From NCBI GenBank assembly GCA_033584155.1, contig CP138355.1:682001-746000 (forward strand): a DNA stretch of 64,000 nt, read 5' to 3'. Source of the stretch: Candidatus Electrothrix scaldis (GTDB lineage Bacteria > Desulfobacterota > Desulfobulbia > Desulfobulbales > Desulfobulbaceae). Shown in pieces: positions 23,835 through 59,761 of this stretch. The stretch's first letter is position 1, and each line of letters starts with the position of its first letter. The notes under the pieces are model-generated. The model worked only from the letters and a program-made list of their open reading frames with translations. It was not told where the DNA came from and did not search any database. Made by a program: the position numbers and the translations under genes.

Positions 23835-23927
23835 TGGCGGAGAGAGAGGGATTCGAACCCTCGGTGGAGTTTAACCCCCACACTCGCTTAGCAGGCGAGC
23901 ACCATCGGCCAGCTCGGTCATCTCTCC
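23835..23927 (-). tRNA. tRNA-Ser (GCT anticodon)
   Basis: The minus strand folds as a class II tRNA: acceptor GGAGAGA/TCTCTCC, D arm, anticodon stem CTCGC/GCGAG around CTGCTAA (anticodon GCT), a long variable arm, GGTTCGAATCC T arm, discriminator G and an encoded CCA (TGG at 23835-23837 on the plus strand). It decodes AGC/AGU. Confidence 0.95.
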
Positions 23928-23957
23928 TTTGTCTTGCAAAGCAAGGACAAAATATCC

Positions 23958-24043
23958 TGGCGGAGGAAGTAGGATTCGAACCCACGGTACTTTCGTACAA
24001 CGGTTTTCAAGACCGCCGCCTTCAACCACTCGGCCATTCCTCC
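23958..24043 (-). tRNA. tRNA-Ser (TGA anticodon)
   Basis: The minus strand folds as acceptor GGAGGAA/TTCCTCC, GGCCGAGTGGTTGAAGGC D arm, anticodon loop CTTGAAA (anticodon TGA), variable arm, GGTTCGAATCC T arm, discriminator G and encoded CCA. It decodes UCN codons. It lies 30 bases upstream of tRNA-Ser(GCT), and the two are probably one transcript. Confidence 0.95.
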
Positions 24044-56189: not shown

Positions 56190-57986
56190 TTATTTCTTTT
56201 CTTTTTTCCCATGAGGAGTAATCGTAGGCATCTCTGCCGATTCAGAAGCCGTAGCTTGCTCTGGCTCTGGCGCTTCTGTCGGTTTTTCCAGAGTATCTTT
56301 CTTTCCTTCTGACTCCTCCTTCTTTTCTTCCTCTGTTGGTTCCTGTTTCGTTTCCTGCTTCTGTGTCTGTGTCTGTGCTTGGGTTTTGGCCGAGCATCCT
56401 AAGCGCTTTGCTTTTTCCGCAAAAACAAAGTGATCGTCATGCTCAGATGTGTGGCATTGGAGACAAACCTTTTCATCCGGGATGGTAACAGGTACCTTAC
56501 CTTGGCCTGCACTATGTGCGGCAGCTGGCCCATGACAGGCCTCACAGCCAACGTTTTTTAGCGTTTTAGGAAGCATTAAGAGGAGATTAGCAGCCTTGAC
56601 CTTATCGGGGGCATAAAAGGGCAGGGTCACATGGCAGATCAGGCAGTCCTCATTAAACTGCTGATTATTTTTTTCCAGCGTTGTCCAGGCTAGTGCATGT
56701 TTGCTTTTCTGCCAGATGGCTGTCTGGGCGGCATGGCATTCCTGGCATTTCTGGGAACCCACGAGATCCTGCAGGGTGATTGTCGGATCATTAAGACCTG
56801 TTTGCGCAAGTCTTTGCTGGTTGATTGCGTTTGCCTTTTGAATTGCCCGATGGACAATTTGTTTAACCTCGGGTTCTTCCGGCAAAGAGGTCTGTAATGG
56901 AATAAAGCGATTAGTATACTTGCATAACCCCTCTTCCTCTTGTGAGGCATCTCTGCTGGCTTTCAGAGTTTTTATGCTCTGGGCAAGTTGTTTTTTCTCT
57001 GTGAGGAGTTTTTTATACTCCTTATCTTTTGCCAGTGCTTTCTTTTCTTTCTGCTTTTCCATGCGGGTAAGCTGCTGCTCCACCCTTTTCAGACGATCCT
57101 CTTCAGCTTTAATTCGAGTAAAGGACTTATCTGTCCATTGTCCGGCCTCTGTCCAGTTGATGTGCATCATGCCCAGATATTTTCCCCGTGTTCCTGTTTG
57201 AGCAATAAGCGTTTCATCTACCTTATAAGGGGCTGTGGTTGGTGCGGCATGGCCTGAACCAAGAATCAGATGCAGTCCACCTACGGTTTCAGCTATTTCC
57301 TTGTTAATTTGATAGGAATAGCTTGAAAGGAGGATCGTCATATCGACCTTCTGACCAATTTTGGCCAATGCTTTGGGTAAAACCTCCTGCCAAGGAAGGA
57401 TGGTATACCCTTTCTTTTCCCCTTCTCCGTCATGCTCTCCCTGATCATCAGTAAGCCCGAACAAAGCTATCTTTACTCCACCAACTTTCGTAATAAGATG
57501 CGGAGTAAAAAGAGGTTGTTTTTTCTCAGGATCAACAAGGTTCATGGAGAGCCAAACGGTTTTATGCCGCTCCTGCAGCTCCTTGAGAAAATCGATACCA
57601 CCAGCCAGATCATGCGCACCTATGCCTATAGCCTGGCAGTTCATAGCCTGCATAGCAGCAGCAATACCATCGGCTTGGGCTTTTTCCGCCAGTTCCCTTT
57701 TGGCCTGTAGCTTTGCGTGTTGAAAGAGCAAAGAACCGCTATCGAGAAAGAGAGCTGGAAGCTTCTCTTTCTCCGCCAGTTTTCTTATTTGTAATGCTTT
57801 TCTGGACAGTCCGCCCAGTTGTTTTTTCTTTCAACCGCAGGGCTGGAGTTCTCCTCGAACGTCATTCCCATAAAAGAGTAAAAATTCTTCTGCCCAGGAT
57901 GTTGGAACTACGGTGAGGAGTATAATAAGCAGAACAAAATGCGGGGCCACACGTTTTACCAGAGAGAGCAAAGCAGGATGATTCAT
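56190..57986 (-). CDS. Putative selenoprotein: 5'-nucleotidase-like phosphoesterase fused to tetrahaem cytochrome
   Basis: The reading frame runs from ATG 57986 to the stop at 56190 through one in-frame UGA (57833-57831), which I read as selenocysteine 52. The N-terminus (MNHPALLSLVKRVAPHFVLLIILL...) is a signal peptide. Next comes GNDVRGELQPCG-U-KKKQLGGLSRKA, a 5'-nucleotidase/phosphoesterase-like start in which, as I recall, relatives have PCGC. A phosphoesterase-like domain (about 45-280), a charged coiled coil (about 300-360) and a cytochrome domain follow. The four CxxCH sites are CQECH, CLICH, CEACH and CLQCH. A Lys/Glu/Gln-rich tail ends it. A SECIS-like hairpin follows the UGA. It is probably periplasmic or outer-surface. 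Without readthrough only 51 residues would be made, and the 57731 start gives a product lacking a signal peptide. Confidence 0.85.
57802..57833 (-). promoter_or_regulatory. Selenocysteine UGA codon and bacterial SECIS-like hairpin
   Basis: On the minus strand UGA (57833-57831) is followed by 12 bases, then CTGGGC-GGACT-GTCCAG (57818-57802), a 6-bp stem (one G-U pair) with a 5-base loop starting GG. The apical loop begins 18 bases after the UGA. Bacterial SECIS elements for SelB typically have such a small stem with a G-containing loop at about this distance, as in E. coli fdhF (loop GGUCU). SelB binding is inferred. Confidence 0.75.
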
Positions 57987-58082
57987 AGTATGAATATATA
58001 GAGTGTTTATGAGTTTTCCGATACGGGATTCTTCTGAGCCAGCAAGGATCAGTGAAAAAATGATCTTTTTCTTCGCGGCCTC

Positions 58083-59441
58083 TTATCCCTGTCGTTTGAT
58101 ATTCTTTTGTTGTTGGGCCCGTTGCTGAAGAATTTTTCGCCATTTGGTCAGGCGATCATGGATAACAGCTTCAAAGCCTCTTTCCGTGGGCAGGTAAAAA
58201 CGCTTACCTGCAAGTGGCTCCGGCAGATGTTCCTGAACAACCAGCCCGTCCTCAGCATCATGGGCATATTGATAGTCCTTGCCGTACCCAATTTTTTTCA
58301 TCAGCCCGGTAGGGGCATTCCGTAGATGAAGGGGAACGGAGAGGGAGCCGAAGCGACGTATTTCATTTTTAACCTTTTTTTCCGTTAAATACAAGGCATT
58401 GCTTTTCGGTGCCGTAGCAAGATACACCGTAACCTGGTACAAAGCCAGTTCTCCCTCTGGAGAGCCCAACATTTCATAGGCCCTTCGGCAGCTTATGGCA
58501 ACTTCGAGAGCCCTTGGATCACTGACACCGATATCCTCGCTGGCAAAGCGAATCAGGCGCCGAGCAATATAGAGCGGATCCTCGCCACTCACCAGCATCC
58601 TTCCCAGCCAATAACAGGCCCCGTCTGGATCACTGTCGCGCAGGCTTTTATGCAGGGCTGAAATGAGATTATAATGCTCTTCTCCTGCACGATCATAGCG
58701 GAGTGTCTGCCCCTGGAGCACTTCATGAACAGTTTCGCGCGTAATAACCAGCGGAGCATCACCTTCTTTTTTTACTATGAGAAGTGCTGCTGTTTCAAGG
58801 TAATTCAAGGCTCGCCGGCAGTCACCATCAGCGGCTCGGGCGATCATGGTGGCGATTTCTTCTTCCAGGGCAATGCCATAGTTTCCCAGTCCAGAAGCTT
58901 GGTTCTGGACGGCGCGTTGAAGAATACCTGTGATGTCCTCCACGGCAAGGGGCTGGAGGAGCAGCATCTGGCAACGGGAAAGCAGGGGGGCTATCACCTC
59001 AAAAGAGGGGTTTTCCGTAGTTGCGCCGATGAGTGTCAGGAGACCACTTTCCACATGAGGGAGGAGTGCGTCCTGTTGACTTTTATTGAAACGATGAATC
59101 TCATCGACAAAAAGGATTGTTTGCCCCCCTTCCTCACCTTTTTTTTCTTTTGTCTCATCAACAATTTTTCTGATCTCTTTTACCCCGGATAACACGGCGG
59201 AAAAGAATATGAAATCAGCCTGGATGCTGTGGGCCAGTATAGAGGCCAGAGTGGTCTTGCCAGAGCCGGGCGGGCCCCAGAGAAGCAAAGAAGGGATTTT
59301 GCCCTTGCTTATTAATTCGTGAAGCAATCTTCCTCTGCCGACAAGATGTTCTTGTCCGTAAAAGTCATCCAGGGAAACCGGGCGCATACGCTCCGCCAGC
59401 GGTATAGCATTACGATGCTCTTGTTTTTTGTTTTTATACAT
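58083..59441 (-). CDS. rarA: Replication-associated recombination protein RarA/MgsA
   Basis: The 452-residue AAA+ ATPase has PLAERMRPVSLDDFYGQEHLVGRGRLL, Walker A in LLWGPPGSGKTTLASILA, Walker B in ILFVDEIHRFNKSQQDALLPHVE, sensor 1 in IGATTENPSFEV, and C-terminal HGLxxxxR-like residues plus SAxHKSLRDSDPDGA, all typical of RarA (human WRNIP1 homologue). It acts at stalled replication forks with the clamp and SSB. I chose ATG 59441; ATG 59489 would add 16 residues without a better ribosome site. It precedes the selenoprotein gene by 96 bases on the same strand. Confidence 0.95.
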   Translation of the reverse strand: MYKNKKQEHRNAIPLAERMRPVSLDDFYGQEHLVGRGRLLHELISKGKIPSLLLWGPPGSGKTTLASILAHSIQADFIFFSAVLSGVKEIRKIVDETKEKKGEEGGQTILFVDEIHRFNKSQQDALLPHVESGLLTLIGATTENPSFEVIAPLLSRCQMLLLQPLAVEDITGILQRAVQNQASGLGNYGIALEEEIATMIARAADGDCRRALNYLETAALLIVKKEGDAPLVITRETVHEVLQGQTLRYDRAGEEHYNLISALHKSLRDSDPDGACYWLGRMLVSGEDPLYIARRLIRFASEDIGVSDPRALEVAISCRRAYEMLGSPEGELALYQVTVYLATAPKSNALYLTEKKVKNEIRRFGSLSVPLHLRNAPTGLMKKIGYGKDYQYAHDAEDGLVVQEHLPEPLAGKRFYLPTERGFEAVIHDRLTKWRKILQQRAQQQKNIKRQG

Positions 59442-59761
59442 AGAACAGTGTCTTGATCCGAGAAGGGAATGTGGAGAATATGATAACATGGAATGAGAAA
59501 ATTATGCAGAAGAATTTCTGCGGCTACGCCACTGTATTATTTGATGAGTTTTGCTTTTTTTATTTTTCCGAAAGGAAAATTTTGAACGATTTCTTCTTGA
59601 AAAAGAATAATTAATCGCCGCTGTTGCCTTGTCCGAAAGTCAATGGTAGAATGTTGATAGAATTCTTTTGCCTGCGAAAGAAAAGACGAGGACATTTGTC
59701 GTATGGATCAGCTCCCGCGATACCCTTCATTCGCTAAAAATTGACCTAAAGAGTACTTATA

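Follow-up and report, generated by a model that had tools for sequence, protein, structure and literature searches.

A predicted selenocysteine codon in a UshA-like gene with four haem motifs in Candidatus Electrothrix scaldis

Results

The window, a stretch of 64,000 nucleotides of the Candidatus Electrothrix scaldis genome (contig CP138355.1, positions 682,001 to 746,000), carries on its minus strand a frame of 598 codons (57986-56190) which is open except for a single UGA at 57833-57831. Reading through this UGA yields a protein of 598 residues with U at position 52 and 546 codons beyond it, which runs from a leader resembling a signal peptide through PCG-UGA and a UshA-type domain to four CxxCH motifs and a charged tail. 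The features of the locus, all on the minus strand, are:

56190..57986, minus strand: UshA-like (seleno)protein gene, 598 aa, UGA predicted as Sec52 (from the translation; family model NF041198, 606.9 bits over residues 18-522)
57891..57986, minus strand: N-terminal leader resembling a signal peptide, about residues 1-32 (judged by eye on the translation)
57831..57833, minus strand: in-frame UGA, predicted Sec52 of PCG-U (UGA at the equivalent codon in 31 of 35 loci)
57802..57818, minus strand: putative bacterial SECIS, 6-bp stem CUGGGC/GUCCAG with loop GGACU (57812-57808), folding energy -8.4 kcal/mol
56733..56747, minus strand: haem motif CQECH (within the Pfam Cytochrome_C554 match, 413-486)
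56631..56645, minus strand: haem motif CLICH (within the same Cytochrome_C554 match)
56532..56546, minus strand: haem motif CEACH (within the Pfam Cytochrome_C7 match, 477-518)
56451..56465, minus strand: haem motif CLQCH (within the same Cytochrome_C7 match)

In the translation of 57986-56190 the leader is followed by EFLLFYGNDVRGELQPCG-U-KKKQLGGLSRKA, and the PCGU motif occupies residues 49-52. The four CxxCH motifs occupy residues 414-418, 448-452, 481-485 and 508-512, and both Pfam cytochrome matches score over their cut-offs. Under translation table 11 without readthrough, the remaining in-frame ORF starts from a TTG at 57731, measures 513 aa and is missing the leader. An annotation halting at the UGA would truncate the gene, or label as a pseudogene what is a real gene.

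A RarA/MgsA-type AAA ATPase gene (58083-59489) lies 96 bases upstream of the UshA-like gene on the same strand. Gene neighbourhoods were surveyed in 12 regions plus L048 and L050, with Pfam searches on 9 proteins only. The RarA/MgsA-type gene also adjoins in L060 (Pfam) and in L048, L059, L062 and L063 (by eye, from ORF starts), and a DHH/DHHA2 protein is found nearby in L060 and L061 (Pfam) and in L059, L063 and L067 (by eye). Both neighbours were judged to be housekeeping-like. Elsewhere in the window, two tRNA genes are located at 23838-24043 on the minus strand.

The window protein matches the NCBIfam model NF041198 (UshA_like_PCGU, ‘UshA-like (seleno)protein’) over profile positions 7-518 of 519, with its 606.9 bits standing against a cut-off of 275. 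The model covers the UshA part as well as the haem part, and the match extends across both. An alignment (A1, n=25) was built from the window protein and 24 of the remaining 34 loci, leaving out 10, and all of its 25 members match NF041198 at E<=0.001.

Some part of the protein is matched in 244 of 395 searched genomes of the phylum, the window's own genome included. Five records with names came from a separate scan: three from Candidatus Electrothrix and one each from Candidatus Electronema and a Desulfobulbus sp. Among named organisms the nearest relatives found belong to the cable bacteria Candidatus Electrothrix, and their copies are 68-76% identical to the window protein. The codon at the Sec position was compared in 35 loci, comprising the window's own locus, 29 other best-match loci and the five named records, i.e. 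best matches and a non-random sample. In this set the codon is UGA in 31 loci and TGC in three (L044, L050, L051), while one locus (L043) has neither and reads PSGR. All three copies from Candidatus Electrothrix (L048, L049, L052) contain the UGA, as do copies from many further genera of the phylum, and the recurrence of UGA at the equivalent codon in 31 of 35 loci points to more than chance. The sequence-only reading had expected a Cys at position 52 in relatives, and this stood in part: a TGC Cys codon does exist there, but among these 35 loci it is the minority form (3/35) and the usual codon is UGA.

Further Cys-coding members were seen among the matches listed. Fourteen further loci from these matches cover the Sec place and are stop-free inside; judged by best local alignments, the residue aligned with Sec is Cys in 10 of the 14. 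Five of these 10 show CGC; in the other five the partner Cys comes two residues later and the Cys50 column holds a different residue. The remaining 4/14 show Thr at the Sec column in a C-x-T-C form. The PSGR copy (L043/L069, 1-5537) is a member without Cys and Sec that retains four haem motifs.

A SECIS is a hairpin shortly past the UGA with a G at the start of its loop. The putative hairpin of the window spans nt 13-29 past the UGA, and its loop begins at nt 19. Against simple shuffling its folding energy gives a z of only -1.52, with 17 of 200 shuffles equally good. Each sequence was then compared with 400 synonymous recodings of itself, where the hairpin was defined by where its loop lies and by a G at loop position 1 or 2, a definition set after the hairpins had been seen. 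All 31 UGA rows have a hairpin of -5.5 kcal/mol or lower with the loop starting from nt 19 or 20; of these rows, 21 are within the best 5% of their synonymous recodings; for the window hairpin, 8/400 recodings are as good. Because the rows are related, these counts are not independent of each other. The UGA rows fall into two stem registers (17 and 14 rows), and the outer pair of the first register is C-G in 10 of its 17 rows, U-A in 3 and unpaired in 4. The hairpin is almost absent from the nearest Cys-coding relatives (L050 and L051, both TGC, score -0.5) and from L043 (-0.8). The third Cys row, L044, scores -6.8 at a different place, which is unremarkable (105/400).

A less specific test, which compares the entire 42-nt segment with synonymous recodings by folding energy, shows nothing (mean z -0.20, 1/30 UGA rows in the best 5%). 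An Rfam search of the whole window at the gathering score returned the two tRNAs only and no SECIS match, and at E<=10 the region 57600-58000 gave one irrelevant weak match, again without a SECIS match.

The genome containing the window consists of one contig of 5,089,909 bases, and the sel genes by which the selenocysteine claim could be checked were all found in it: a tRNA-Sec (75.3 bits, over cut-off; anticodon tca according to ARAGORN), SelA (627.9 bits), SelB (370.7 bits) and SelD (343.8 bits); the three proteins likewise exceed their cut-offs. The SelD gene (L053, genome contig about 3826318-3827244) has an in-frame UGA of its own in TCGUAAK, which is a second sign of selenocysteine use in this genome. 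A second SelD-like gene, free of UGA, is located at about 3090502-3091443.

Reading of the UGA

Our analysis provides strong support from sequence for a selenocysteine codon, drawn from family membership, the interchange of Sec and Cys, the hairpin and the selenocysteine machinery. We put the probability at roughly 0.93 that the UGA at 57833-57831 is a Sec codon and that the predicted protein belongs to the UshA-like PCGU selenoproteins, a known family. On this reading tRNA-Sec and SelB would decode the UGA as selenocysteine under the direction of the hairpin 13-29 nt past it, and the exported protein would consist of a UshA-type domain joined to a tetrahaem cytochrome part. Most of the sequence-only reading holds up here: the in-frame UGA within PCG-U and the 546 codons after it are confirmed by the translation, selenocysteine at this place is supported by Cys-coding relatives, hairpin and sel genes, and the SECIS-like stem-loop is backed by 31/31 UGA rows, with the whole-segment energy test negative.

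Two other readings of the UGA are both very improbable. If it were read by near-cognate suppression as Trp or another ordinary residue, for which we found no supporting evidence, neither the alternative codon of the relatives, Cys TGC in L050, L051 and L044, nor the hairpin going with the UGA would fit. A gene broken by a true stop, as a pseudogene or through sequencing error, agrees with the frame containing a stop, but not with a UGA shared among L048, L049, L052 and many genera of the phylum, with a conserved downstream frame including all four haem motifs, or with selenocysteine machinery in the genome.

Function of the predicted selenoprotein

The N-terminal domain of the family matches solved 5'-nucleotidases and SoxB by profile (chains 3ivd, 1ush and 2wdc). 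The residues which we take to be the dinuclear-metal ligand set of these enzymes, their places taken from a motif alignment, are mostly not kept in A1 (n=25): the motif-I Asp is found in 20 members, the motif-I His in 4, the Asp of GD in 2 and the Asn of GNHE in none, and the two later His ligand places are filled in 2/25 and 6/25. The first Cys and the Sec/Cys of the PCGU motif are each present in 24/25. The full ligand set of UshA and the 5'-nucleotidases is accordingly lacking from A1, and of the label ‘phosphoesterase’ given by the sequence-only reading the domain homology stands, while catalysis of that kind is left without most of its metal ligands.

A selenoprotein that is still a metal-dependent hydrolase, either a nucleotidase or a SoxB-like thiosulfohydrolase, in which Sec would be an additional metal ligand, seems unlikely, though it survives better than the alternatives above. 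The profile matches to solved 5'-nucleotidases and SoxB and the frequent motif-I Asp speak for it, as does the SoxB model TIGR04486, which is matched by 24/25 A1 members at E<=0.001 (best 1.8e-36). The window protein, however, reaches only 54.5 bits against the SoxB cut-off of 550, the other ligand places are largely empty, and the haem fusion suggests electron transfer. The window protein itself retains the motif-I Asp (Asp42), and its His125 and His246 are close to old ligand places, so that a remnant metal site may persist.

We consider it somewhat more probable than not that the protein is a periplasmic oxidoreductase and no phosphoesterase, in which Cys50-Gly-Sec52 would both react with a substrate, perhaps some sulfur compound, and exchange electrons with the haems. 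This redox function is suggested by the loss of most metal ligands, by the near-universal Cys and Sec/Cys in A1 and by the fusion to four haem motifs. Many members have the haem part; in L026, L027, L032, L035, L041, L044 and L047 the translated stretch stops before it. In such a scenario the Cys50-Gly-Sec52 pair would react with the substrate, and electrons would pass between this pair and the haems or a partner.

Against the redox function stand the retained Asp42 with His125 and His246 near the old ligand places, and the relative L043, in which the haem part is present but the Cys-Sec pair is missing. The surroundings of this motif-less copy (L043/L069), a c7-type cytochrome, Fe-S proteins and NrfD, hint at electron transfer, though for a copy without the motif. 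An AlphaFold model built from 6 sequences was too poor to be of use (pLDDT 45.2).

More tentatively, the UshA-type fold may have swapped the dinuclear metal hydrolase site for a Cys-Gly-Sec centre wired to the tetrahaem domain, giving a Sec-haem oxidoreductase that perhaps acts on periplasmic sulfur compounds of cable bacteria and their relatives. Cable bacteria live by sulfur oxidation; this way of life and the relation to SoxB led us to guess at a sulfur-compound substrate. Against the redox function, the discussion of the 2008 Global Ocean Sampling survey (PMC2398784) treats the UshA-like family as an exception to families with a Cys-based redox motif, and the table of the same paper nonetheless gives CxU for it. 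If true, a redox role would provide a testable function for a selenoprotein family given by name and motif only in the review tables examined.

Comparison with known systems

The window gene is a sound annotation, and the claim of the sequence-only reading that this is not a well-described selenoprotein type is wrong, since the family had already been named. It is curated as NF041198, a COG0737 UshA-like selenoprotein with CxU is tabulated in PMC2398784, whose discussion puts it among the previously characterised families, and UshA-like CxU is listed both in the review PMC9312934 and in a 2026 review (PMC13188914), the latter citing the 2008 survey for the family. With these entries the type was known before. 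A literature search by titles and abstract starts recognised no functional study of the UshA-like PCGU family.

The COG0737 UshA-like protein as tabulated in PMC2398784 shares COG and CxU motif with the window protein; the main text of that survey never uses the word cytochrome, so under that word the haem part is undescribed there. UshA-like (seleno)protein family 2 (NF049981) has a related N-terminal domain, but the window protein scores 43.1 bits, below the cut-off of 140; its model has only 262 positions, and the table in PMC13188914 gives its motif as CxxU. The ExtKL multihaem cytochrome selenoprotein (NF040886) is, like the window protein, a selenoprotein with c-type haems (PMC13188914). 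However, only 5/25 A1 members match NF040886, and weakly (best E 0.00016), and it is absent from the hits of the window protein. The 5'-nucleotidases and SoxB have a homologous N-terminal domain, but most of their dinuclear-metal ligands are not conserved in the UshA-like PCGU family. With NF041198 the window protein shares both the PCGU motif, which is part of the family name, and a full-length model match; it adds a charged C-terminal tail past residue 522 and shows no other difference that matters.
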